Positions 2,550-43,211 of a stretch of DNA of 43,776 nucleotides are shown in pieces. Numbering within the stretch: position 1 is the first letter of the stretch; every line of letters starts with the position of its first letter. The stretch spans positions 1 through 43,776 of the forward strand of contig JAJYMO010000090.1 of assembly GCA_021786845.1 (NCBI GenBank), written 5' to 3'. This DNA is from Pseudomonadota bacterium. GTDB taxonomy: Bacteria; Pseudomonadota; Gammaproteobacteria; Burkholderiales; Sulfuriferulaceae. Position numbers and translations under genes: made by a program. Under the pieces are notes generated by a model. It ran no database searches. It was not told the DNA's origin and saw only the letters and a program-made list of their open reading frames with translations.

Positions 2550-3752
2550 TTAGTGTCCAGCCAGCCAAGAGTCTGGATTAAATGCCTGACTCCGATATCG
2601 TAATTCAAAATATAAACCGGTTTCATTGCTGCCGCCGGTGTTGCCGACGCTGGCAATGACTTCATTGGCTTTTACAGCGTCACCAACACGTTTATACAGG
2701 GTTTCGTTGTCGCTGTACAGACTCATATAACCCCCACCGTGGTCAATAATAATCAGATTTCCAAATCCGCGCAACCAGTCAGAAAAAACAACTTGCCCTG
2801 CAGCAACACTGATGACCGGCTGTCCGGCTGGTGCCTCAATAAACACGCCTTTCCACAAAGTGCCTCCCGCTTCGCGTGGTGTGCCAAAACGATGGATAAG
2901 TTTGCCATGCGCCGGCATCGGCAAGTGCCCTCTCAGGAGAGCAAGTCCCTCATCCGGCAACTTGGGTTCGGTCAGGGCTGTTTGGTGCGTCCCGATGGTG
3001 TGGATGGCATGCGTAACATGGACACGCATTTTTTTGCGAGCCGCTGCCGCACGAGCCAGCCTTTGCAGTAACCGGTTGATGCGCTGTTCATCCTGTTCCA
3101 GGGTGCTGATTTGTTGTTGCTGATGTTCGATCTGTGTGCCCAACTGCTTTAGCGTGCGTTGTCGTGCAGTATGTTCTAACTGTAATTGTTGATATTGTTG
3201 TTCGCGGCGCGTGCGTTGTTGTGCCAGAACAGTTTGTAATTGTTGTTGCTGAAGGTTCAGGTTGTTGAGTACCTGCGCCGATTGCTGTAGCGCAGCGATG
3301 TCGTGGTCACGTTCGCGACCCAGATAACCCGCGTAGATGATGTTACGATTGATTTGTCCGGGATTGTCGCCGTTTAACCACAGTTGAAAGGGATTGGTAT
3401 TTCCGCTGAAATACAGTTGGCGTAACAGGGTTGCTAATTCCGATTGCTGGCGGGTGAGGTTATGTTGCGCTGTGCCAATTTGTTGATGCAGCTCGCTGAG
3501 CGCTGCTTCTGTTTGAGATTCTTGTTGTTGTAGTTCAGACAGTGCCCGGTTCGTATTGCTGATGGCTTGTTCTGATTGGCGAAGTGTATCCATGACATGG
3601 AGACGGTTTGTTTCTGTGGTTTGTTTCTGCTGGCGCAATGTATCCAGCTTATGATGGATAGTGGTCAAATCGGCTTTGCTGGGCGCAGCCTGTGCCCCGG
3701 CCAAATGAGCGGCGCAAGCCAGGGCAAGCAGATAGGTGCGGAAGTGGTTCAC
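2550..3752 (-). CDS. envC: EnvC-like murein hydrolase activator (degenerate LytM/M23)
   Basis: A 400-residue periplasmic protein with a signal peptide ending near AGAQA (residues 18-22). A long Gln/Leu-rich coiled coil covers about 28-240 and a C-terminal LytM (peptidase M23) domain about 285-398. The zinc ligands of active M23 enzymes are missing: the first His position reads LWKGVF and the HxH motif reads YFELRY, as in E. coli EnvC. That points to an activator of N-acetylmuramyl-L-alanine amidases during septum splitting rather than a hydrolase. Translation starts at GTG overlapping the gpmI stop (GTGA), which implies translational coupling. The pairing gpmI-envC-ctpA is a recurrent proteobacterial arrangement. 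The call is firm at family level; the amidase partner is not in the window. Confidence 0.9.
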   Translation of the reverse strand: MNHFRTYLLALACAAHLAGAQAAPSKADLTTIHHKLDTLRQQKQTTETNRLHVMDTLRQSEQAISNTNRALSELQQQESQTEAALSELHQQIGTAQHNLTRQQSELATLLRQLYFSGNTNPFQLWLNGDNPGQINRNIIYAGYLGRERDHDIAALQQSAQVLNNLNLQQQQLQTVLAQQRTRREQQYQQLQLEHTARQRTLKQLGTQIEHQQQQISTLEQDEQRINRLLQRLARAAAARKKMRVHVTHAIHTIGTHQTALTEPKLPDEGLALLRGHLPMPAHGKLIHRFGTPREAGGTLWKGVFIEAPAGQPVISVAAGQVVFSDWLRGFGNLIIIDHGGGYMSLYSDNETLYKRVGDAVKANEVIASVGNTGGSNETGLYFELRYRSQAFNPDSWLAGH

Positions 3753-5284
3753 TCAAATTGTATCAGTGATTTACCCGTCATTTCGGACGGTTGGGGAATG
3801 CCCATGATGGAGAGCAGGCTGGGACTGATGTCTTCCAGCGCGCCGGTTGCTGTCAGTTTTGCAGGACGCTTGCCAACATACATCAAAGGAACGAGGTTGG
3901 TGGTATGTGCCGTATAGGCTTGGTGTGAGACTTCATCCATCATCATTTCGGCATTGCCATGGTCCGCAGTAATTAAAATTTCACCACCAATTGCCTGCAT
4001 GGCGGGGATGACACGCCCCAAACAGTGATCCAGTGTCTCAATGGCCTCTATGGCCGCAGCCAGGTTGCCAGTATGGCCGACCATGTCCGCATTGGCGTAA
4101 TTACAAATGATGGCATCAAACCGCTGCTGTGCGATGGCATCCAGCAACCTGTCGGTGAGTTCATGCGCACTCATTTCCGGTTTTTGGTCATAGGTTGCCA
4201 CATCGGGTGAGGCAATAAGGATGCGTTCTTCGCCCTGGTAAACCGTTTCTTCACCTCCGTTAAAAAAGAAAGTGACGTGCGGGTATTTTTCAGTTTCGGC
4301 GATGCGTAATTGGGTCAGTCCCCATTGTGAGATGTATTCACCAAAGCCGTTGCGTATGCGTTCAGATGGGAAGGCCACGGAGACACTGAAGTCCTCACTG
4401 TAACCGGTTAATGTACAGAAATCAGCCAGTTTCGGAAAACAACCCCGGCCAAAATCAGAAAAACCCGGTTCAATGAACGCACGGGTGAGCTGGCGAGCAC
4501 GGTCGGACCGAAAATTCATGAATACAACGCTGTCGCCATCCTCTATCCGAATAGGTGTCTGGTCCGGATTGGCGATGCGCGTGGCTTTGACGAATTCGTC
4601 AGATTCGCCGCGTGCATAAGCTTGCTGCAGACCTGTCAAGGCATCTGGTGCGAGGTATTCAGCCATACCCTGAGCGATCAGATCGTAGGCTGCTTTCACT
4701 CGCAACCAGCGCTTATCACGGTCCATCGCATAATAGCGGCCAATGATAGAAACCACTTGTCCGACACCCAAAGCGTCCATCCTGGTTTGCAGTCGGGCCA
4801 AATAGGTTTCTGCACTGCGCGGCGCAGTATCGCGTCCATCCAGGAACAGGTGAAGGTAAACTTGACGGAGACCGGCTCGGGCGGCGGCTTCCAGCATGGC
4901 ATGGATGTGGGTTTCGTGGCTGTGTACGCCGCCATCTGAGAGCAAACCCATGATGTGTAGTGCATGACCTGTTTGTTTGGCGAGTGTAATGCTGCGCGTC
5001 AGCGCAGGATTGGTAAAAAAATCGCCTGTTTTGATCGACAGCTCAATGCGGGTGAACTCTTGATAAACCACGCGACCCGCGCCAAGGTTCAGATGTCCCA
5101 CTTCTGAGTTGCCCATTTGACCGGAAGGCAAGCCTACTGCGGATTCGGAGGCTTGAATGAGTGTATGCGGACAGGTTTGCCAGTAATGCGTCCAGTTGGG
5201 TTTGTTGGCCAGGGCGATGGCGTTGTCAGTGTGGCATTCACGGCAGCCAAAACCGTCAAGAATAATCAGCAATACAGGGGTCAA
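3749..5284 (-). CDS. gpmI: 2,3-bisphosphoglycerate-independent phosphoglycerate mutase (copy 1)
   Basis: A 511-residue cytoplasmic, Mn-dependent enzyme interconverting 3- and 2-phosphoglycerate in glycolysis and gluconeogenesis. The first metal aspartate is D10 in ILDGFG, and the phosphoryl-carrying serine is S60 in MGNSEVGH. The segments GRYYAMDRD, NFRSDRARQ and TADHGN follow in family order, and the length is typical. An in-frame TAA lies 9 bases upstream and an AAGGA ribosome site sits just ahead of TTG at 5284, so TTG is the supported start; the nearby ATG is out of frame. It heads the minus-strand gpmI-envC-ctpA series, next to the housekeeping genes, and is likely the constitutive copy. 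A second GpmI gene lies at 41688-43211. Confidence 0.95.
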   Translation of the reverse strand: MTPVLLIILDGFGCRECHTDNAIALANKPNWTHYWQTCPHTLIQASESAVGLPSGQMGNSEVGHLNLGAGRVVYQEFTRIELSIKTGDFFTNPALTRSITLAKQTGHALHIMGLLSDGGVHSHETHIHAMLEAAARAGLRQVYLHLFLDGRDTAPRSAETYLARLQTRMDALGVGQVVSIIGRYYAMDRDKRWLRVKAAYDLIAQGMAEYLAPDALTGLQQAYARGESDEFVKATRIANPDQTPIRIEDGDSVVFMNFRSDRARQLTRAFIEPGFSDFGRGCFPKLADFCTLTGYSEDFSVSVAFPSERIRNGFGEYISQWGLTQLRIAETEKYPHVTFFFNGGEETVYQGEERILIASPDVATYDQKPEMSAHELTDRLLDAIAQQRFDAIICNYANADMVGHTGNLAAAIEAIETLDHCLGRVIPAMQAIGGEILITADHGNAEMMMDEVSHQAYTAHTTNLVPLMYVGKRPAKLTATGALEDISPSLLSIMGIPQPSEMTGKSLIQFE

Positions 5285-26531: not shown

Positions 26532-27155
26532 TTATTTCATCAGCTTTTCAAAAAAAACCTGAATTTGACGTGTGCTTATTTGTTCTTTTGGTTCAAGATG
26601 GTGAATGTTGTCGTCGGCAATGTCGTCAATATACAATAGCGCCACGCACAACAGCTTGTAATTGATACCATTTACCACCTCTTTTGCAACGGCAAACATT
26701 TGTCGTAAGCTCATTTCATGTGCTAAAAAATAAAGGTCGTAATAATCCCGGTATTTGGCGCGCACAAAAAGCACATTCACTTTCATCGCGGCAATGGCAT
26801 TGAGGCTGGCAAGGTTAAAGGTTTCTATGACTTCTGGACGCAGAAAGTGCCATGCGGCATCAAAAAATGTTATTTTGACGCCATTGATGAGTAAGTCGAT
26901 TTGCGTATCGCTTTCATTGAGTATTTCTTTGTGCTCAAATTGCTTGATTACGAGATGAATTTCATTTTTATTGAATTTTCCCTGTTCGTACGTGAAAAAA
27001 TCTAAATCCTCACTTTTGCGATGGCATAAATGCAATGCCAGCGCCGATCCGCCGACGAAAGTATAATGTCGCAAAAAAGGGGCGGTTTCAATCAGGTTTT
27101 CAAGCAGCGTGCGCGTCTCAGGAAGCAAGCAGTCGAAGTTTCTTTTCGCGGTCAC
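26532..27155 (-). CDS. AbiEii-type nucleotidyltransferase toxin
   Basis: A nucleotidyltransferase-like protein of the AbiEii/DUF1814 toxin family, 207 residues from the preferred start. The core motif FVGGSALALHLCHRKSEDLDFF places G35-S37, R46, S48, D50 and D52 in the expected pattern, and AKYRDYYDL follows later. Such toxins attach nucleotides to tRNA or other targets and pair with an HTH antitoxin. The frame is open to 27197, but GTG 27155 has AGGGGGG just upstream and gives a sensible N-terminus (MTAKRNF). The gene overlaps the antitoxin's 3' end by 38 bases, implying coupling. Local sequence is more AT-rich than the flanking aldolase and acetate kinase genes, suggesting acquisition by transfer. 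Confidence 0.8.
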   Translation of the reverse strand: MTAKRNFDCLLPETRTLLENLIETAPFLRHYTFVGGSALALHLCHRKSEDLDFFTYEQGKFNKNEIHLVIKQFEHKEILNESDTQIDLLINGVKITFFDAAWHFLRPEVIETFNLASLNAIAAMKVNVLFVRAKYRDYYDLYFLAHEMSLRQMFAVAKEVVNGINYKLLCVALLYIDDIADDNIHHLEPKEQISTRQIQVFFEKLMK

Positions 27156-27654
27156 TTGCGCCCCCCTGAAAATAATCCGCCTCAACATCCATTCCAAAAA
27201 ACACCCTCGCCAAGAAAAGATTTAATTTCTTGAATCGAAGATCATTTTTAAGTTCTGAAACCCATTCTTTATAAAGTTTTCGTGAGCCATACAGCTTGAA
27301 GGCTTCAACAATATCATCAAAATCGGCATACTTGAACAAGTGTTCAATGAAAATTTTATCACCGACATCGTTCAATGTGACAAGCTTGTCATAGCTCCAA
27401 AATAGGCCTTTGTTTTTTAATTTTTCAAACAGAGCTGTTTTTTCTTTTTCTATCTGAATGATTCTGGATATGGTCGCATGCGTCAATGACAAATAGGCAG
27501 CGATTTCCGCCCGCCGGTAACCCGCGTGGGCAGCAATCATAATCGCCTGATTACGCGAATTTTGCAAAAAATGATCCGCCAACGGCATTGCTTTGCGTCC
27601 AGAGACGGCGCCATTTTGTTTGTTAACTGTGATCGGTTTTACTTTACCGGGCAT
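27118..27654 (-). CDS. HTH antitoxin-like partner of AbiEii-type toxin
   Basis: A protein of about 178 residues from ATG 27654 (a TTG at 27723 would add 23 residues). An HTH is visible at about residues 40-68 (AGYRRAEIAAYLSLTHATISRII). The C-terminal part, with FWSYDKL, LNDVGDKIFIEHLFKYAD and ELKNDLRFKKLNLFLARVFF, is the stretch commonly encoded next to AbiEii nucleotidyltransferases (remembered as DUF6922-like; the exact name is unverified). It likely binds its own promoter and neutralises the toxin. A 16-base palindrome lies about 30 bases upstream. Confidence 0.72.
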   Translation of the reverse strand: MPGKVKPITVNKQNGAVSGRKAMPLADHFLQNSRNQAIMIAAHAGYRRAEIAAYLSLTHATISRIIQIEKEKTALFEKLKNKGLFWSYDKLVTLNDVGDKIFIEHLFKYADFDDIVEAFKLYGSRKLYKEWVSELKNDLRFKKLNLFLARVFFGMDVEADYFQGGASDREKKLRLLAS

Positions 27655-27683
27655 CGTATTTCTATTCCTGGATGTTGTGGAGC

Positions 27684-27699
27684 GCGCATACTTATGCGC
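27684..27699. promoter_or_regulatory. Palindromic operator candidate of the toxin-antitoxin operon
   Basis: GCGCATA-CT-TATGCGC has perfect 7-base arms with a 2-base centre. It lies 30-45 bases upstream of the antitoxin ATG (27654, minus strand), with a second palindrome TACGCGTA at 27706-27713. This is where a dimeric HTH antitoxin would be expected to bind for autoregulation. Confidence 0.5.
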
Positions 27700-27788
27700 C
27701 GAGTTTACGCGTACACAGGCCAATCCTCAATACGGGTATGCGATGATGCTGGGCGCAGTGGTGCTTCCATCCCAACCTGTTCAAAAAA

Positions 27789-32539: not shown

Positions 32540-33073
32540 ATGAATATGTTGCCTGTCAATGAAAAAATGCTGGGGAAATTTGGTCCTTACACGCTGGTGA
32601 CGGGTATCTTGCTGGTTATTCTGGGGACGGTTGGCATCATATTCCCGATCATCATGTCCTGGGTAACCACGGTTTTTGTCGGCTGGTTATTGTTCATCGG
32701 CGGGATTTTCTGGGGTGTTCACACTTACAATTACAGCCCAAAGAATGTGATTGACTGGCTCAAACCTGCCTTGTTGCTGATTACGGGGAGTCTGGTGCTG
32801 TTCTATCCTGCCCCCGGCGTGGCCGTAGTGGGTTTGTTGCTGGCTTTCTATCTGTTGCTGGATGCCTTGGGCAGTTTTGCCCTGGCTCAGTCGATTCACC
32901 CAGCCAGAGGTTGGGGGTGGATGGTTTTTAATGGCGTGATTTCGGCACTGTTGGCCATCTTGTTTCTGGTTGGATGGCCAACCACTTCCCTGTGGCTGGT
33001 GGGTCTGTATGTAGGCATTAGTCTGGTGTTCGATGGCTGGGCGCTGATCACTATTGGCTGGTTGTCGCGTTGA
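32540..33073 (+). CDS. HdeD/DUF308 family membrane protein
   Basis: A 177-residue inner-membrane protein with about six hydrophobic segments (roughly 17-38, 42-62, 72-92, 94-116, 126-146, 150-172), matching the HdeD-like DUF308 fold. In E. coli HdeD helps survival at high cell density under acid; the mechanism is unknown and transfer of that role here is inference. A strong AGGAG ribosome site precedes the ATG. It is on the same strand 97 bases after ppsA and immediately before the long non-coding region of the retron-type reverse transcriptase. Confidence 0.8.
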   Translation: MNMLPVNEKMLGKFGPYTLVTGILLVILGTVGIIFPIIMSWVTTVFVGWLLFIGGIFWGVHTYNYSPKNVIDWLKPALLLITGSLVLFYPAPGVAVVGLLLAFYLLLDALGSFALAQSIHPARGWGWMVFNGVISALLAILFLVGWPTTSLWLVGLYVGISLVFDGWALITIGWLSR

Positions 33074-33254
33074 CATCAGGTCATCCAGGTCGTCTGCCGA
33101 CGCTGGCACGAGGGATTTGTGATCAGGCTGTGGTAGCGGGTGAAGGTGTTTATGGCACAGCGGCCCGTAACTTGCGGGCTGAATTGTGATCGCCGGTTCG
33201 CAATGGCATTCCTGGAGCATGTCCAAAGAAAGGGTTTTTTCTCCGGGCATCATC
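33074..33254 (+). other. Non-coding region before the retron, 5' part
   Basis: No gene is visible. Two small hairpins can form: GCCCG/CGGGC (33163-33167, 33175-33179) and TGGA/TCCA (33213-33216, 33222-33225). The latter precedes a T run at 33235-33240, so it may end the ppsA-hdeD transcript, but the T run is not directly behind the stem. A promoter for the retron RNA could lie here; none was identified with confidence. Confidence 0.35.
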
Positions 33255-33339
33255 GTCTGACTCAATTTGATGTTGTGCGATGTCTGTGCACACGGGATAA
33301 AATCCTGTATATTCCAAATTGATGGTGTGCCAGTCAGAC
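33255..33339 (+). ncRNA. Candidate structured RNA, branched inverted repeat (possible retron RNA part)
   Basis: GTCTGAC-TCAATTTG (33255-33269) pairs perfectly with CAAATTGA (33315-33322) and GTCAGAC (33333-33339), interrupted only by a side hairpin TGG-TGTG-CCA (33323-33332). Inside the long stem two more hairpins can form: TGTGC/GCACA (33274-33278, 33288-33292) and CGGGAT-AAA-ATCCTG (33293-33307). The result is a compact branched fold of 85 bases. Its place upstream of a retron-type RT makes it a candidate for part of the msr/msd RNA, but the boundaries and the branching G are not identified. Confidence 0.45.
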
Positions 33340-33565
33340 AACTATTCAGCCGCCTGTTTCGGGGGAGCTTGCTCCTTCGGGGTGGGCAGATTCTGTTGAA
33401 GAAATTGCTTTGGCAGATGGGGAAGTCGGACAGACTTCTCTGGAAAGAGCTGACGCCAAGGCGGCTCCGCCGCCCCGCCGCGTTGTGCTCCATCAGCTGC
33501 TGTACCCTTTGGTGTCTTGCGCGAATCATGGCACCGATGGCCCTCTGGGCCCAAAGGAGAGGTGA
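33340..33565 (+). ncRNA. Candidate retron RNA region, hairpin chain before the RT
   Basis: A series of hairpins fills the bases just ahead of the RT: GGAGC-TT-GCTCC (33364-33375), GAAGTC-GGACA-GACTTC (33422-33438), GGCGG-CT-CCGCC (about 33460-33472), and a closing stem CCTTTGG (33506-33512) with CCAAAGG (33551-33557) that encloses GGCCC-TCT-GGGCC. CTCCTTCGGG (33373-33382) can also pair, with one mismatch, with CCCAAAGGAG near the RT start, a possible a1/a2-like pairing. The RT ribosome site AGGAGAGGTGA (33555-33565) begins inside the last stem. Retron RNAs normally lie here, but the msr/msd boundaries are not assigned. Confidence 0.4.
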
Positions 33566-34699
33566 ATGGAAACCTGGTCGGCACACCACCTTTTGAAACA
33601 GACTGAAGCAACGCCAGGTGCTGAAAAGGCACGGCTGTTGCGGCAATACGCGCAGAAGTTGATGCACGCGAATTTGCCCGTGATTTTTTCACTTCGGCAT
33701 CTTTCCAGGATCGCCGGCATTGACTATCCTGTTCTCCGTGCCACAGTGGAGCGTCGACGCGAATCAGAAAATTACCATATATTTACGATTAAAAAACGTT
33801 CGGGTGGCCAACGGTTTATTCATGCCGTTTCAGAGCAACTGTTTGCCACACAGCAATTTATCAATGCCGGGATATTGCAGAAGCTCGAACCTCACTCAGC
33901 TTCGTTCGCATTTCATCCGCAGGGCGGCATCCAGAAATGCGCGGCCATGCACTGCGGCGCACGCTGGATGTTTCAGTATGACCTGCAAAATTTCTTTTAT
34001 GACATCAATGAAGTAGACGTCTTCCGCATTTTTCGGGATATCGGTTATCGTCCGTTGCTGGCGTTTGAGTTGGCGCGCATCTGTACCACCACACGATTGC
34101 CTGAACACTTCAAGGAGCTTCTGCAGCCGGCAGGCAAAGATTTTCGTAAGGCTTACGCCTTTTATGTCGATCACACCGGCTTAACGGGCGTGCTCCCTCA
34201 AGGTGCGCCGACCAGTCCCATGCTCAGCAATCTTGCGGCAAGAGCGCTGGATGAGAAGTTGACCGAATATGCCGGTCAACACGGCTTTGTCTACACGCGT
34301 TACGCAGACGACATCACCTTGTCGGCAGGATGTTTGCCCGAAGCCGTCTCTGCAGGACAGATCAATCGCGCCGTGATTGGCATCATCAGACGTTGCAAGT
34401 TTGTTGAGAACGGGAAAAAGACACGGCTTGCCGGTCCAGGGGCAAAAAAAATAGTGCTGGGCCTTCTCGTGGACGGTGAACATCCCAGAATTTCAAAAGA
34501 GACTTACAAACGAATTGACCGGCATCTCCACGCAACGCTGAAATACGGACTGGCCGAAGTGGCCAGTCATGAGCAATTCGATTCGCCGTTTGGTTTTTAC
34601 CACCATCTCGCTGGTCTGATTTCCTTCGTTAAAGACGTGGATCAAACGCGATGGTCAGAATTTAGTGCGCGGTTTTCAAACATAAAAAAACCGGTTTGA
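33566..34699 (+). CDS. Retron-type reverse transcriptase
   Basis: A 377-residue reverse transcriptase, slightly longer than most retron RTs. D139 in FQYDLQNFF is the first catalytic aspartate; LPQGAPTSPMLSN (210-222) is the retron/group II form of motif 4; RYADDIT carries the YADD box with D248 and D249. The retron X motif NAxxH appears as CAAMH (125-129), and the Y-domain VTG as VLG (297-299) in KIVLGLLVDG. No maturase, HNH, protease or Cas1 domain is present. In retrons the RT uses an upstream RNA to make RNA-linked single-stranded DNA and pairs with an effector for phage defence. The 490 non-coding bases upstream fit such an RNA. No clear effector gene adjoins: an HdeD-like gene lies upstream and a cation ATPase 129 bases downstream. 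Strong AGGAGAGGTGA ribosome site. Confidence 0.88.
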   Translation: METWSAHHLLKQTEATPGAEKARLLRQYAQKLMHANLPVIFSLRHLSRIAGIDYPVLRATVERRRESENYHIFTIKKRSGGQRFIHAVSEQLFATQQFINAGILQKLEPHSASFAFHPQGGIQKCAAMHCGARWMFQYDLQNFFYDINEVDVFRIFRDIGYRPLLAFELARICTTTRLPEHFKELLQPAGKDFRKAYAFYVDHTGLTGVLPQGAPTSPMLSNLAARALDEKLTEYAGQHGFVYTRYADDITLSAGCLPEAVSAGQINRAVIGIIRRCKFVENGKKTRLAGPGAKKIVLGLLVDGEHPRISKETYKRIDRHLHATLKYGLAEVASHEQFDSPFGFYHHLAGLISFVKDVDQTRWSEFSARFSNIKKPV

Positions 34700-34828
34700 A
34701 GCAAGCTGGCGAAAACGCCCCGGCTTTGGCAGCGACGTTCCGAGCGTCAGTTCAGGCGCAAATCAAAGGTTGGTACCGGGCAAAAAACGGTCCGTCAGAT
34801 TTTCCGAAAGCGATCATTTACGCAGGCT

Positions 34829-37540
34829 ATGAAAATTCATCAACTGCCCCCTCTCGATGCTGTCGCAAGCCTGAAGAGCAGTGCGGCGGGACTGAGCGAT
34901 GCCGAAGTTGCACGCCGTTTGCACGAATACGGCCGCAACAACGTGGAAAAAGTGGCCCGCAGGCCTGTGTGGCTGCGCCTTATTAAAGAGTTCACCTCTT
35001 TCTTCTCGCTGATTTTATGGGTTGCCGCAGGCCTGGCCTTTTTTACCGAATGGGCGTCGCCCGGACAGAGCATGGCGAAAGTGGGCGAGGCCATCGTGAT
35101 TGTCATCCTGATCAGCGGATTGTTCTCTTTCTGGCAAGAGTATCGCATTGAGCGGACGCTTGTGGCGTTGCGCAAGCTGTTGCCCCAGCAGGCCCAGGTA
35201 TTGCGTGGGGGCGAAATTGCTCGAGTGTCTGTAGAGCAATTGGTGCCGGGAGACATTATTTATTTGGAGCAGGGTGACAAGGTTCCTGCGGACTGCCGGC
35301 TGATTGAGGCATTTGGCGCGCGAGTCAATAACGCGGTCATCACGGGTGAATCGGTACCTGTCGTGCTGGAAGCCGGCCCCTCCGAAGTGGATAACCCAAA
35401 CAACAGCAAGAACATCGTGCTTGCGGGCACCTTGATGATCTCCGGGCAGGCCAGAGCCGTTGTCTTCGCCACGGGGATGCGGACTGAATTTGGCAAAATT
35501 GCGCACCTCACTGATACGAGTGTGGAGGCGGTTTCGCCGTTGCGCAAGGAGATCGCACACTTAAGTCGTCTGACCGCAATCATTGCGACTGGCATGGCGC
35601 TTCTGTTTCTCTCATTCGGCTGGATGATTGGCATCCCCTTCTGGAAGGCTTTTATTTTCGCAATTGGCATCATCGTCGCCATGGTGCCGGAAGGGCTGCT
35701 TCCCACGTTGACCCTGGCACTCGTACTGGCCACCCAGCGCATGGCAAAGCGCAATGTGCTCATTCGTTACTTGCCTTCCGTCGAGACGCTCGGGTCTACG
35801 AATGTGGTTTGCACTGACAAGACAGGCACGTTGACGCAAAACCGCATGGTGGTACGACAGCTCTATCTCGGGGAAAGTTTTGATTCGCCTGCAGGGTTAA
35901 AACAAAAACCCGGTCTCGCAAAGCATTATAACCCTTTTTTTCTGATCGCCTGGATGTGCCACGATCTGAATGAGCGTGAGGGCCGGGGGAAACCCGGCTT
36001 TCTGGGGGATCCTACGGAAGTTGCATTGGTGGACATGGCGTTGCAATTCATACCCGGCATGCCGGTTTATCCCCGGCTGGATGAGATCCCGTTCGACGCA
36101 GAGCGCATGCGACTGTCCACCCTGCACCAGACACCTGAAGGACCTGCCATATACTGCAAGGGCGCCCCTGAGTCCGTGCTGCCGCTTTGCCAGCAGACGC
36201 TTGTTGATGGCGAGATTCAGTCTCTTGGCGCCGAATTCAGGACCCGTGTCGTACAAGCGCAAAATACAATGGCAAATCAAGGGCTGCGGGTATTGGCCCT
36301 GGCTTACAGGAAACTGGATGCGGGGGATGACTGGAAAAGTCTGGAGCAGGACATGGTTTTTGCCGGGCTGGCAGGGCTGGAGGACCCACCCAGACCCGAA
36401 GTGCCAGAGGCCATTCGCAAATGCCAGGAAGCAGGAATCAAAGTGATCATGGTGACGGGCGATCACCCGCGTACCGCCACAGCCATTGCACGCGAAATCG
36501 GGCTGGTGAAGTCCGATACCCCGACCGTTATTACCGGTGAACAACTCAGACATTTCTCAACCACCCAGCTCCAGCTTGTTTTGGATGCCCAGGAGATCAT
36601 TTTTGCACGGGTGGTCGCCGATCAAAAAATGCACATCGTGGAGGCGCTAAAAAGCAAGGGGCAGATCGTGGCGGTCACTGGCGATGGCGTCAATGATGCG
36701 CCTGCACTGAAAGCCGCGCATATTGGCATTGCCATGGGGATTAACGGTACAGATGTCGCCAGGGAGGCGGCCGACATGGTACTGCTGGATGACAATTTTG
36801 CCAGTATTGTGAACGCAATCGAAGAGGGACGCGCGATATTTGAAAATATTCGCAAATTTCTCACTTACGTCCTTGTTCATAATGTTGCCGAGCTGGTCCC
36901 TTACCTTGGTTTCTTGCTGTTCAATATTCCCCTGGCGTTGACGCCGATTCAGGCACTGTCCATCGACATGGGGTCTGATACGCTGACTGCGCTCGGTCTT
37001 GGTGTTGAACGACCCGATCCACAGCACATGCGGCGGCCCCCCAGACCGTCAGGTGAAAGACTGATGAACTGGCCTTTGGCGTTACGGGCTTATCTTTTCC
37101 TGGGCCTCATTGAGGCAAGCGCCGCCATGGCTGCTTTTTTCTTTGTGCTCCATGGTGCCGGATGGCAATATGGGCAGAGTCTGGCGGTCAGGAACCCCGT
37201 GTACATGCAAGCCACGACGGCCTGTTTAAGCACGATCATTCTGATGCAGATCGTGAACGTGTTCCTGTGCAGAAGCTCCACCAGATCAGTTTTTTCAACT
37301 GGGCTTCTCGGCAATAAGTTGATTCTTTCCGGTGTGATACTGGAAATGGTTATCCTCGTGTTAATCAATGACACATCTTGGGGGAATCATCTTTTGGGCA
37401 CCGCTCCGGTTGGAGAACGGGTTTGGCGTTATGTGCTTCCCTTTATGGCAGGACTGCTTGTTTTGGAAGAACTCCGCAAGTGGTTGGCACGTAAAAGGCT
37501 GTTCAAGTCAATTTCCGGTAATGGGAAAAAATTGACCTGA
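34829..37540 (+). CDS. P-type cation-transporting ATPase (P2 type), first copy
   Basis: A 903-residue ion pump with an N-terminal cation ATPase domain (about 5-70), the actuator loop TGES at 172-175, the membrane motif MVPEGLLPTLTLALV (M4, PEGLLP at 287-292), the phosphorylated aspartate D330 in CTDKTGTLT, the nucleotide-binding KGAPE, and the hinge TGDGVNDAPALKAA. Six C-terminal membrane segments follow. This matches P2-type pumps for Ca, Na/K or related ions; PEGLLP resembles Na/K-ATPase-like M4 sequences more than the PEGLPA of SERCA. Substrate is not assigned. The ribosome site is weak. It lies 129 bases after the RT; the gap holds only a small GACG/CGTC hairpin. Confidence 0.9.
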   Translation: MKIHQLPPLDAVASLKSSAAGLSDAEVARRLHEYGRNNVEKVARRPVWLRLIKEFTSFFSLILWVAAGLAFFTEWASPGQSMAKVGEAIVIVILISGLFSFWQEYRIERTLVALRKLLPQQAQVLRGGEIARVSVEQLVPGDIIYLEQGDKVPADCRLIEAFGARVNNAVITGESVPVVLEAGPSEVDNPNNSKNIVLAGTLMISGQARAVVFATGMRTEFGKIAHLTDTSVEAVSPLRKEIAHLSRLTAIIATGMALLFLSFGWMIGIPFWKAFIFAIGIIVAMVPEGLLPTLTLALVLATQRMAKRNVLIRYLPSVETLGSTNVVCTDKTGTLTQNRMVVRQLYLGESFDSPAGLKQKPGLAKHYNPFFLIAWMCHDLNEREGRGKPGFLGDPTEVALVDMALQFIPGMPVYPRLDEIPFDAERMRLSTLHQTPEGPAIYCKGAPESVLPLCQQTLVDGEIQSLGAEFRTRVVQAQNTMANQGLRVLALAYRKLDAGDDWKSLEQDMVFAGLAGLEDPPRPEVPEAIRKCQEAGIKVIMVTGDHPRTATAIAREIGLVKSDTPTVITGEQLRHFSTTQLQLVLDAQEIIFARVVADQKMHIVEALKSKGQIVAVTGDGVNDAPALKAAHIGIAMGINGTDVAREAADMVLLDDNFASIVNAIEEGRAIFENIRKFLTYVLVHNVAELVPYLGFLLFNIPLALTPIQALSIDMGSDTLTALGLGVERPDPQHMRRPPRPSGERLMNWPLALRAYLFLGLIEASAAMAAFFFVLHGAGWQYGQSLAVRNPVYMQATTACLSTIILMQIVNVFLCRSSTRSVFSTGLLGNKLILSGVILEMVILVLINDTSWGNHLLGTAPVGERVWRYVLPFMAGLLVLEELRKWLARKRLFKSISGNGKKLT

Positions 37541-39153: not shown

Positions 39154-41691
39154 ATGAACACAGATCCGGTTTCCATAGATAAAGGGTTGTCCAGCCAGGA
39201 GGCTGCCCAACTGCTACAGCAGTATGGCCCCAATACTTTACCCAGTGGACAGCGTCGCACCGGGTTGTCCATCATATTGGAAACAGTGCGGGAGCCGATG
39301 TTTTTGCTGTTGCTCGCTGCGGGCACACTGTATCTGATTTTCGGTGAATTGCAGGAAGGGTTGATTCTGTTTGGCTTTGTGCTGGTCACGATCGGTCTCA
39401 CCCTTTATCAGGAAGGTAAGACCGAGCGGGCGATTGAGGCGCTGCGCGATCTCACCAGTCCCCGTGCACTGGTGATTCGGAATGGCGAGAGGGTACGCGT
39501 GGCGGGGCGCGAGGTGGTGCCTGGTGATTGGGTGGTGTTGGCGGAAGGTGACCGAGTGCCTGCCGATGGTGTACTGGTTGCAAGCGGTAATTTGCAGGTG
39601 GATGAATCGTTGCTGACCGGCGAGGCAGTCCCCGTGCACAAGCGTGTGGCAAAAGGCAATGCAGTACCCGCACGTCCTGGCGGCGATGACACGCCGTACC
39701 TTTATTCCGGCACACTGGTGGTGGGAGGGCAGGGGACAGTACGGATCACAGCCACCGGCGCGCACAGCGAAATCGGACGCATCGGCACGTCGCTGGGCAC
39801 ACTGAACACAGAACGCTCGCCATTACAAAAGCAGACGGCACGCCTTATTCGCACCCTTGCATTTCTGGGCCTTGGTTTGAGCCTGTTTCTGTTTGTGACG
39901 TATGGATTGATGCGCGGTGACTGGTTACAAGCATTGCTTGCCAGTATCGCGCTGGCCATGGCCATGCTGCCGGAGGAATACCCGGTGGTACTCACGGTTT
40001 TTCCTGCGATAGGTGCCTGGCGGCTGTCGAAAGAAAACGTGCTGACCCGGCGGGTAGCCGCTATTGAAACGCTGGGCGCCACTTCTGTGCTGTGTGTGGA
40101 CAAGACCGGCACACTCACCGAAAACCGCATGACGGTGGCGCAGTTATATGCCGGTGGCGCAAGCTTTCTGGTCAACGATGAAACACCGGCTGATCTGCCA
40201 GAAATATTTCATGCGCTGGTTGAGTTTTCTATTTTATCCAGTGAGATCAATCCATTCGACCCCATGGAACAGGCTTTTCAGCGTCTCGGCGAACATTTCC
40301 TCGCCCATACCGAACACCTGCATCATGACTGGACGCTGGTTCACCAATATGCACTGACTTCGCAATTGCGTGCGAAATCGCATGTATGGAAGGCTGCGGA
40401 TGGTGGCAGTTATGTGGTCGCCGCTAAAGGCGCACCGGAGGCCATTATTGATTTGTGTCATCTGGATGCCGTCGCACAAGCCCATGTCGCCGAAGCGGTA
40501 GAGGCCATGGCTGCTGGCGGTCTGCGCGTTCTGGCTGTGGCGCGGGCGCGGTTCGATGGCATGAACTTCCCCACGATAGAACATGATTTCGATTTTGAAT
40601 TTGTTGGCCTGTTAGGGCTTTCCGATCCTTTGCGGAGTGAAATCCCTGAAGCCATACATCAGTGCCATGCTGCGGGCATCAGGGTGGTGATGATCACCGG
40701 TGATTATCTGGCTACTGCGCGAGCGATTGCCCGCCAGGCCGGGCTGGATGCGGATGAAGTACTGTCGGGCGACGTGCTGGACGGAATGAGTGCTGCTGAA
40801 TTGCAAACTCACATGAAAACAGTGAATGTGTGCGCCCGCATCGCGCCGGAACAAAAGTTGCGCATTGTTCAGGCACTCAAGGCCAACGGTGAGATTGCGG
40901 CCATGACGGGCGACGGTGTGAACGATGCGCCTGCGCTCAAGGCTGCGCATGTCGGCATTGCCATGGGCGGGCGTGGTACAGATGTCGCGCGTGAAGCGGC
41001 GGCACTGGTGCTGCTGGATGACAACTTCACCTCTATCGTGCGTGCCATACGCCTCGGCCGACGTATTTTCGACAACATGCAGAAGTCAATGTCCTATATT
41101 TTGGCGGTGCATATCCCCATTGCCGGCATGGCGCTGCTGCCGGTGTTGTTTGGCTGGCCCGCCGTGCTCTATCCGATGCATATCGCTTTTCTCGAACTGA
41201 TTATTGATCCCGCTTGCTCACTGAGTTTTGAGAACGAGGCAGCGGAAGCGGACATCATGCAGCGCCCGCCGCGCGATGCGAATGCGCAGTTGTTCGGCGG
41301 CACGACACTCTGGCTGGCATTGCTGCAGGGCGTCGGCGTGCTGGCGGTGGTAATGGGTACCTACGCTTGGGCGGATCACCATTTGAATGTGCCTGAAGCC
41401 CGTGCCTTTACTTTTACCACGCTGGTGGTTGCCAATCTGGCGCTGATTTATGCTAACCGTGCACGTACGCTGTTGGCCGCGCTTCGCACACCCAACCGCA
41501 TCTTGTGGATGGTTACCGGCTTGACCCTGGGCTTGCTCGCGCTCGCGCTTTACCTGCCGTTTCTTGCGAACGTGTTCCGTTTCGCACCCTTGCCGCTGGA
41601 TGAATTAGTGACCGCCTTTGCGCTGGGATTAGCCAGTGTGGTATGGTTCCAGTTACTCAAATTTTTTCGCCTTGTAAAAATACAACCATGA
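39154..41691 (+). CDS. P-type cation-transporting ATPase, second copy
   Basis: An 845-residue P-type pump, distinct from the one upstream. The N-terminal cation ATPase domain covers about 8-60; the actuator loop is TGEA at 155-158, with Ala replacing the usual Ser; the M4 motif is MLPEEYPVVLTVF (PEEYP at 273-277); D316 in CVDKTGTLT is phosphorylated; KGAPE and TGDGVNDAPALKAA follow. The PEEYP motif differs from the PEGLLP of the upstream pump, so a different ion is likely; the substrate is unknown. It starts 18 bases after the Nramp-like gene, and its TGA overlaps the second gpmI ATG (ATGA), implying cotranscription and coupling. Confidence 0.9.
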   Translation: MNTDPVSIDKGLSSQEAAQLLQQYGPNTLPSGQRRTGLSIILETVREPMFLLLLAAGTLYLIFGELQEGLILFGFVLVTIGLTLYQEGKTERAIEALRDLTSPRALVIRNGERVRVAGREVVPGDWVVLAEGDRVPADGVLVASGNLQVDESLLTGEAVPVHKRVAKGNAVPARPGGDDTPYLYSGTLVVGGQGTVRITATGAHSEIGRIGTSLGTLNTERSPLQKQTARLIRTLAFLGLGLSLFLFVTYGLMRGDWLQALLASIALAMAMLPEEYPVVLTVFPAIGAWRLSKENVLTRRVAAIETLGATSVLCVDKTGTLTENRMTVAQLYAGGASFLVNDETPADLPEIFHALVEFSILSSEINPFDPMEQAFQRLGEHFLAHTEHLHHDWTLVHQYALTSQLRAKSHVWKAADGGSYVVAAKGAPEAIIDLCHLDAVAQAHVAEAVEAMAAGGLRVLAVARARFDGMNFPTIEHDFDFEFVGLLGLSDPLRSEIPEAIHQCHAAGIRVVMITGDYLATARAIARQAGLDADEVLSGDVLDGMSAAELQTHMKTVNVCARIAPEQKLRIVQALKANGEIAAMTGDGVNDAPALKAAHVGIAMGGRGTDVAREAAALVLLDDNFTSIVRAIRLGRRIFDNMQKSMSYILAVHIPIAGMALLPVLFGWPAVLYPMHIAFLELIIDPACSLSFENEAAEADIMQRPPRDANAQLFGGTTLWLALLQGVGVLAVVMGTYAWADHHLNVPEARAFTFTTLVVANLALIYANRARTLLAALRTPNRILWMVTGLTLGLLALALYLPFLANVFRFAPLPLDELVTAFALGLASVVWFQLLKFFRLVKIQP

Positions 41692-43211
41692 TGGCAAAAC
41701 AACCCGTACTTCTGGTCATTTTTGACGGTTTCGGTCTGAATCCCAGTCGCGCTTATAATGGCTGGGCGCAGGCTGACACCCCGCATCTGGATCATTATTT
41801 CGCCAGCTATCCGCATACCGCACTGCAAGCCTCAGGGCTTGCTGTCGGTTTGCCCGACGGGCAGTTCGGCAATTCGGAAGTGGGGCATTTGACGCTCGGT
41901 GCCGGCCGGGTACTCAAACAGGACTTGGTGCGTATTTCCGATGCGATTGCCGACGGCAGTCTGGCAAAGCTGCCTGTCTGGCAACATCTTCTGCAGGGCA
42001 CGCGTCGCTTGCACCTGATCGGACTGGTTTCGGATGGTGGCGTACATTCCCATATCGCTCATCTGCTCGGTTTGCTGTCATTGATTGTGCAGGCGGGCGT
42101 TGAGCCGATCATTCATATGGTGACGGATGGCCGCGATACCGCACCCGGTTGCGCCGAGCGCTTTGTCACACAGGTGGAAACATGGCTAAAAACCTTGGGA
42201 CACGGCCGCATTGCGACAGTCAGCGGACGCTATTATGCCATGGATCGCGCAGGATTCTGGGCGCGCACAGCGCGTGCCTGGCGTGTCATGCTCCATGCGG
42301 AGGGTGAGACGGCGAGTTCGGCCATTGAAGCGATCCACAAGGCAAGGCAACGAGGCGAAAGCGATGAGTTTATCGCACCCACGGTGATTGGCGATGCATC
42401 GACCAGTCGCATCGCAGTCGATGAGCCGGTGCTGTTTTTTAACTTCCGCTCTGACCGCATGCGCCAAATTGCAGCTGCCATCGGATTGCCTGATTTTAAT
42501 GACTTTGATCGTGAGGGAGAAAGTACGCGACGCATAGTCACCATGACCGAATACGATGCACGCTTTCCATTCCCGGTGTTGTTCGAGGACGACATACCGG
42601 CCAAAGTGCTGGCGGAAGTGTTGGCCGATGTCGGATTAAGGCAATTTCATTGCGCAGAAACTGAAAAATATGCCCATGTGACGTATTTTTTTAACGGTGG
42701 TCGTGAGACCCCTTTCCCGGGCGAGGACCGCGAAATTGTCCCTTCTCCGCAGGTGGCGACTTACGACCTGAAACCGGAGATGAGTGCAGCACAGGTGGCA
42801 GATCGCATCATCGCCGCCATCCACAGTGCACAATATGATTTTATTCTGGTGAACTTCGCCAATGGCGACATGGTGGGTCATACAGCTGTGATTCCGGCGA
42901 TTATTCGTGCGGTGGAAACGCTGGACCTGCAGTTCCATCGTGTGGTGCAAGCGGCACTGGCACACGGGTTTTGTATCCTGCTCACCGCCGATCATGGCAA
43001 CTGTGACGAAATGGTGGACCCGGTGAGCGGTGAGCCCCATACTCAACACACGGTTTATCCCGTGCCTTTTTTGCTGCTGGGCACAGCGACAACCGCACTG
43101 AGTATTGGGCGCGGGCTGGCCGATGTCGCGCCGACGGTATTAGACCTGCTGGGTATTGACCAGCCGAAAGAAATGACGGGGAGCAGTATTGCGTTGAAAC
43201 CGGGAATTTGA
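41688..43211 (+). CDS. gpmI: 2,3-bisphosphoglycerate-independent phosphoglycerate mutase (copy 2)
   Basis: A 507-residue paralogue of the copy at 3749-5284, with the same landmarks: IFDGFG, FGNSEVGHLTLGAGR with the catalytic serine, GRYYAMDR, NFRSDRMRQ and TADHGN. The frame is open further upstream, but ATG 41688, overlapping the ATPase stop, begins MMAKQPVLLVIFDGFG, the normal N-terminus. The two copies differ along most of their length, so this is not a recent duplication. Its position behind metal pumps and near the glycogen, pta and ppsA genes suggests a conditional isozyme; GpmI needs Mn, and metal transport genes precede it. Confidence 0.95.
   Translation: MMAKQPVLLVIFDGFGLNPSRAYNGWAQADTPHLDHYFASYPHTALQASGLAVGLPDGQFGNSEVGHLTLGAGRVLKQDLVRISDAIADGSLAKLPVWQHLLQGTRRLHLIGLVSDGGVHSHIAHLLGLLSLIVQAGVEPIIHMVTDGRDTAPGCAERFVTQVETWLKTLGHGRIATVSGRYYAMDRAGFWARTARAWRVMLHAEGETASSAIEAIHKARQRGESDEFIAPTVIGDASTSRIAVDEPVLFFNFRSDRMRQIAAAIGLPDFNDFDREGESTRRIVTMTEYDARFPFPVLFEDDIPAKVLAEVLADVGLRQFHCAETEKYAHVTYFFNGGRETPFPGEDREIVPSPQVATYDLKPEMSAAQVADRIIAAIHSAQYDFILVNFANGDMVGHTAVIPAIIRAVETLDLQFHRVVQAALAHGFCILLTADHGNCDEMVDPVSGEPHTQHTVYPVPFLLLGTATTALSIGRGLADVAPTVLDLLGIDQPKEMTGSSIALKPGI

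Follow-up and report, generated by a model that had tools for sequence, protein, structure and literature searches.

A probable type III-A retron without its effector, and a predicted RNA whose closing stem runs into the reverse transcriptase gene

What is the function, if any, of an elaborately self-complementary stretch of DNA that lies immediately upstream of a reverse transcriptase (RT) gene? The question is raised by a contig of a bacterium of the family Sulfuriferulaceae (JAJYMO010000090.1; the 43,776 nucleotides analysed are called the window here), in which an earlier note, made from the letters alone, pointed to a branched inverted repeat of 85 bases and took it for selected RNA structure, possibly the msr or msd stem of a retron. 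The arms and the side hairpin are present in the letters as described: the left arm, GTCTGACTCAATTTG, occupies 33255-33269, and the right arm is made up of CAAATTGA and GTCAGAC, separated by a small side hairpin, so that the repeat ends at 33339. A selected RNA structure does lie just upstream of the RT, very probably the RNA of a retron, but its shape and limits are not those of the repeat. We consider it quite probable that the locus is an effector-less type III-A retron with an overlapping RNA of 266 nt, whose two closing strands, a1 and a2, are kept complementary by compensatory change, and in which RT messenger and msDNA precursor would be alternative fates of one transcript. The features on which this reading draws are as follows.

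33137..33322, + strand: probable decayed C-terminal end of an effector gene (C-terminal profile score)
33255..33269, + strand: left arm of the inverted repeat, outside the retron RNA (absent from the sister locus; codons RLTQFD in the probable effector-remnant frame)
33323..33588, + strand: predicted ncRNA of the retron (msr-msd), 266 nt long with a1 and a2 at its ends (fold, conservation, closing-stem covariation)
33323..33331, + strand: a1, TGGTGTGCC, the 5' side of the closing stem (fully complementary to 33580-33588; corresponding position in relatives)
33342..33348, + strand: second part of the closing stem, CTATTCA (MFE and centroid folds, trio consensus)
33349..33349, + strand: putative priming guanosine, the first unpaired base past the stem (position and motif)
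33352..33387, + strand: first msr hairpin of the trio consensus (trio alignment; also terminator-like by pattern)
33553..33559, + strand: Shine-Dalgarno-like AAAGGAG of the RT (seen in the sequence; its place in the 3' end of the msd template is predicted)
33566..34699, + strand: retron RT of 377 aa, type III-A, YADD intact (PADLOC, Pfam RVT_1, translation)
33580..33588, + strand: a2, GGCACACCA, the 3' side of the closing stem, within RT codons 5-8 (complementarity, cross-relative tests)

The identity of the RT is the firmest part of the assignment. Among 54 PADLOC families its best match is RT_III-A (PDLC02944, 513.8 bits), which is the RT of type III-A retrons; it also matches Pfam RVT_1, retains YADD, and has retron RTs as its nearest solved chains by sequence, the RT of Ec86 first. 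The RT thus belongs to the III-A clade. Its two closest relatives in this work are that of a sister locus, L002 (MAG FK4.bin111), with 93% identity, and that of L003, from a MAG labelled Deltaproteobacteria, with 52%; these two and the window form the trio referred to below. The other RT_III-A relatives were gathered from four genome sets that overlap in part (16 of 398, 7 of 297, 3 of 48 and 5 of 248 genomes at the chosen cut-offs, the PADLOC profile search giving 16 of 398 at 1e-40), from the search that yielded L002, and from five plasmid records. A search of 369 genomes of the class with the window RT at 1e-40 found only the window's own genome, phage records gave no match at 1e-30, and two stretches of viral contigs matched a pattern, with no relative among them.

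Elsewhere in the window, two ORFs near its ends (3749-5284 on the - strand and 41643-43211 on the + strand) both resemble, by eye, cofactor-independent phosphoglycerate mutase. An AbiEii-like nucleotidyltransferase gene (Pfam PF08843; PADLOC) lies at 26532-27197 (-), and the ORF upstream of it, 27118-27723 (-), is without a Pfam or PADLOC match and perhaps encodes an antitoxin. In L002, about 107 nt between the RT gene and a P-type ATPase gene (about 4185-4292) are not alignable to the window.

The general layout of retrons, as outlined in one account (PMC6868368), is an msr-msd region with complementary flanks in front of the RT gene. In the window, 33323-33588 folds as one closed, multi-branched RNA (MFE -122.4 kcal/mol, z -4.0, equalled by 0 of 200 shuffles), and its sequence is conserved in L002 and L003, so that a structured RNA does stand beside the RT, closed by complementary a1 and a2 strands that are supported by permutation and by covariation across relatives. 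Pairing of a1 with a2 goes on through 33333-33337 with 33574-33578, and in the second part of the stem CTATTCA pairs with TGAATGG (33563-33569), which holds the RT start codon. G33349 then stands in what we take to be the position at which retrons place the priming guanosine of their 2'-5' linked RT-DNA; TCTAG is found at this spot in six of the 16 RNAs compared, with the window's guanosine sitting at its G, and around the RT start AAAGTAGATG or a close variant is found in 10 of the 16. The first msr hairpin shows one compensatory pair in the trio, together with several one-sided changes and several pairs broken in L003, and only its inner part, 33360-33379, is kept in the window's own MFE fold. 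By eye, relatives are often without a clear ribosome site. A promoter scan gave no sigma-70-like promoter, and Rfam had no match for the window, nor for 32950-34900 with E up to 5. PADLOC, according to its description (PMC9252829), includes RNA models.

The closing stem was examined across the relatives by locating the a2 strand through alignment of the RT proteins (codons of METWSAHH / WxSQHY) and scoring how well it pairs with the 120-330 nt upstream, both at the same locus and at each of the others. For 14 non-redundant loci the sum of own-upstream pairing is 406, against a permuted mean of 271.3 and a maximum of 362 (0 of 20,000 permutations); this set, which kept the three misfits L022, L025 and L028, replaces one of "18 less redundant" loci in which L026, L058 and L060 were identical in this region and L059 and L061 shared a1. 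In 10 of the 14 loci no other upstream pairs as well as the own one, and in the rest other upstreams, out of 13, match it once for L012, twice for L025, 10 times for L022 and 12 times for L028. With 24 loci (L027, a copy of L026, being left out, and L026, L058 and L060 being identical here) the own sum is 721, the permuted mean 479.5 and the maximum 602, again with 0 of 20,000. When an 18-nt a2 segment was slid along the RT gene, pairing gave a single peak with a mean of 29.0, falling to 22.0 and 23.8 one step to either side and to 16.1-18.0 at the other places. The five plasmid loci were fetched after the pairing rule had been set: L059, L061 and L062 obey it, with a1 strands of 15, 16 and 9 bases lying 197, 197 and 213 nt away, and one, three and none, respectively, of 23 other upstreams do as well; L058 and L060 carry no information beyond that of L026, which they repeat.

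Counting pairs column by column leads to the same stem. In 22 distinct loci (L027, L058 and L060 left out as copies), with a register that was picked for best pairing, a choice for which the permutations control, 89.5% of cells are paired against 64.6% after shuffling, 66 cells are compensatory against 20.1, and covariation is 0.624 against 0.179, values that none of 500 shuffles reached; doubly changed pairs, 10 against 7.8, are a weaker signal (26 of 500). Fourteen loci have a glutamine codon in a2, and in 13 of these a1 has the pairing base, C or T, opposite the third position of that codon (CAG or CAA), with a G-U wobble in L062, a synonymous change that is answered in the RNA.

For any single locus the signal is weak to modest. 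With 100 shuffled upstreams each and a wider search, six of 20 loci were never equalled and 12 were equalled two to 10 times (the window seven times), as against 35 times for L022 and 88 for L028. In a comparison of 20 loci the own upstream was strictly the best partner in only nine, partly because the set included close relatives. Fit is poor or lacking in three of 22 loci, namely L022 (8 bp), L025 and L028. In the trio itself the changes in the a1:a2 stem are all one-sided and one pair is broken; of the 89 pairs that make up the whole trio structure, just four have double changes. RNAalifold predicted 0 pairs on a MAFFT alignment of 16 whole RNAs, an alignment too poor for this purpose, and consequently no full consensus structure is claimed beyond the trio. 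The six weakest relatives (L015-L020, 30-34% identity) have no stem at the equivalent place; their matches start at residue 31 or later, with N-termini that are not alignable, and they were excluded from later counts. Across the clade as a whole, the closing stem a1:a2 is kept by compensatory change.

Two observations on the misfits may be added. L022 and L025 have an upstream protein with the usual end motif and the usual RT N-terminus, yet their a1:a2 pairing is weak or shifted. At L045, the same site as L028, the upstream ORF of 437 aa is by eye unlike a PRTase effector and no a1:a2 stem was found; this RT_III-A relative maybe represents another subtype.

In relatives, the strands of this stem are embedded in genes on both sides. 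In 21 of 25 loci, a count that includes two with a weak a1 (L022 and L025) and four copies (L026, L027, L058 and L060), a1 begins within an open frame of 249-440 codons whose stop lies 10-28 nt past the first base of a1 (72 in L011), close enough for the last bases of a1 to reach the stop codon in some loci. The four exceptions are the window, L002, L003, whose contig starts 366 nt upstream of the RT, and L028. All nine upstream proteins scanned are PRTase_III-A, and six of six match PRTase-CE and wHTH-PRTase_assc; a1 is encoded at the last residues of this effector, YYPxQLRxP (consensus of 14). On the other side, seven of 22 loci (one of them L025, with its poor stem) lack any other in-frame start codon from a2 up to the first RT motif, and a2 is therefore coding there if RT is made, while the window and 14 other loci have later in-frame starts. 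Thus, in this clade, both neighbouring genes share sequence with the retron RNA, the effector gene at its end and the RT gene at its beginning. In the literature surveyed, outside which the founding classification of types falls, we met no description of a stem with a1 in the one gene and a2 in the other; the double overlap is unusual, and may already be known in that classification. Type III-A retrons themselves are already known, Mestre 2020 having reportedly defined the retron types.

One potential consequence of this arrangement is a choice imposed on each transcript. Transcription in the window would start just before a1, and the RT would bind its own folded leader RNA, prime from G33349 and copy upward from about 33562. 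With the RT start codon (33566) in the predicted closing stem and the ribosome site in what would be the first template bases, one RNA molecule could be either RT messenger or msDNA precursor, and by binding or copying its own leader the RT would switch off its own translation. In complete systems such a switch would couple RT output to free RNA and hold the effector's complex in balance, and at the window locus it would regulate a solo RT. We infer both this either/or switch and the priming guanosine. The fuller proposal, in which a doubly coded stem (a1 at the effector's end, a2 at the RT start) would bring with it the messenger-or-precursor choice, a built-in feedback linking the amounts of effector, RNA and RT, and the keeping of an old C-terminus by replaced effectors, with RNA and RT persisting in the window's genus in the absence of any effector, is tentative, and we hold it with slightly less belief than doubt.

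Alternatively, the overlap of a2 with RT codons might be a by-product of compact packing and carry no regulatory meaning, a possibility that we regard as real, if more doubtful than credible. Compact gene overlaps are common in general; on the other hand, the start codon itself lies in the stem in the window fold, and the arrangement recurs across the clade.

What the window has in front of its retron is a DUF308 gene. No match to the PRTase_III-A effector was found at E 0.01 in the window's genome (98.6% complete, 100 contigs) or in that of the sister, and the same search gave a match in both control genomes, so that neither genome yields the PRTase/winged-helix effector gene of a type III-A retron. 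The locus is accordingly a type III-A RT with its RNA, an incomplete system from which the effector is missing. Just before a1, and in frame with it, stands a frame of 61 codons and a stop that ends in ...HRLTQF...ILYIPN* and scores 6.5 bits against a profile of effector C-termini, a score reached by one of 2000 shuffles and exceeded by two of 596 other open segments of the window; against the full-length effector profile it scores just 2.0 bits, with four of 2000 shuffles as high. Judged from its sequence, 33137-33322 is probably the decayed C-terminal end of a lost PRTase/winged-helix effector gene. The sister locus aligns closely from about 33285 on, after a gap of 165 nt (33120-33284), and among 19 genomes searched 33126-33278 has a match only in the window's genome; perhaps 33120-33284 is a remnant of the effector gene that was deleted further in the sister. 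No empty site was found through the flanking genes in genomes of the same genus, where at the cut-offs used the two flanks occur together only in the window's genome and the sister's, each of which has the retron. In a common ancestor of the window species and its sister the effector gene was probably lost by deletion, which left the probable stub in the window.

Loss of the effector invites the view that the whole locus is a decaying relic, with RNA and RT slowly eroding and without present function. The missing effector and its probable stub fit such a view, as does the presence of the RT in just two of 18 genomes of the family. Against it, the RT is open in two species, with differences that are mostly silent (dN 0.033, dS 0.260, dN/dS 0.127), and the catalytic YADD and the RNA fold are kept; the RT is thus under constraint between the two species, although part of that divergence may predate the loss of the effector. 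On balance we find a relic rather unlikely, and return to a retron that has lost its effector and kept its RNA and RT.

Where does this leave the inverted repeat? Folded alone, the 85 bases do form a branched structure of -26.4 kcal/mol (shuffle mean -17.95, z -2.72, five of 200 shuffles as good), and only nine of 1240 stretches matched for G+C fold at least as well. Over the window as a whole, 1375 of 8740 stretches of 85 bases, taken on both strands in steps of 10 and overlapping their neighbours, fold at least as well; the fold is unusual locally, yet not exceptional for a scan of such size. In a fold of 33240-33620 the stem dissolves: the left arm is no longer paired with the right arm, whose partner there is the beginning of the RT gene, within the a1:a2 stem. 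Nor does the left arm occur anywhere in the sister locus, whose gap takes out its place, and similarity to L003 starts only near 33305, from where it runs into the RT. Compensatory change in homologous loci, which had been proposed as a check, is found for the stem that pairs into the RT coding sequence and fails for the branched repeat. Of the segment suggested as msr or msd, 33323-33339 does fall in the 5' part of the RNA, mostly in its closing stem, and the left arm lies outside. That the branched repeat itself serves as an msr or msd stem, or as a regulatory fold in RNA, is already largely refuted and highly improbable. It is incidental and mostly accidental, not the conserved structure: codons of the probable stub happen to complement the flanks of a1, which gives the inverted repeat that was first seen.

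It is just as improbable that 33323-33565 is no RNA at all and instead a coding C-terminal extension of a lost upstream protein, as an open frame (WCASQTTIQP...GPKER*) directly before the RT ATG and a similar frame in L003 might suggest, since substitutions between the window and L003 fall evenly over codon positions (26, 25, 26), a 1-nt indel in L002 shifts the frame, in 20 of 25 loci the upstream frame stops no more than 28 nt from where a1 begins, and the RNA fold is strong; with no coding signature between the genes, this candidate was rejected.

These observations have several implications. Where retron RNAs are sought only in the noncoding stretch before the RT, RNAs that end inside annotated genes would be cut short. 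The overlap also predicts that translation of the RT and synthesis of RT-DNA compete for one RNA, and a coding a1 offers a reason why the replacement of a type III-A effector kept a C-terminus. Finally, a pair of effector-less species raises the question of what role a retron RNA and RT play without a toxin.

Among known systems, retron Ec86 (Eco1) resembles the window in having, by sequence, the solved RT closest to the window RT, and presumably belongs to another retron type. Type III-A retrons, composed of a PRTase and winged-helix effector, an ncRNA and an RT, share with the window the RT family, and relatives of the window have the PRTase-CE/wHTH effector directly upstream; unlike them, the window and the sister genomes have no effector that could be found, and their clade has a2 within the RT gene and a1 within the final codons of the effector. 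Retron-Bth1, according to a recent description (PMC12548924), likewise has no apparent effector gene and still makes RT-DNA; features of its own, as given there, are an RT split by a group II intron, an extrachromosomal location and no assigned known type. The same source describes Retron-Sda1 as a III-A1 RNA and RT without a PRTase effector, dispensable for the defence tested, with a HipA/DUF3037 defence pair in the effector's place (PMC12548924). Retron-Sda1 is like the window in combining a III-A1-like RT and RNA without the PRTase effector, and differs in having the HipA/DUF3037 pair upstream, where the window retron has the DUF308 gene. The C-terminus of the replacing DUF3037 protein is reported there to resemble that of the usual effector (PMC12548924), and a coding a1, such as that seen across the present clade, could account for its retention.
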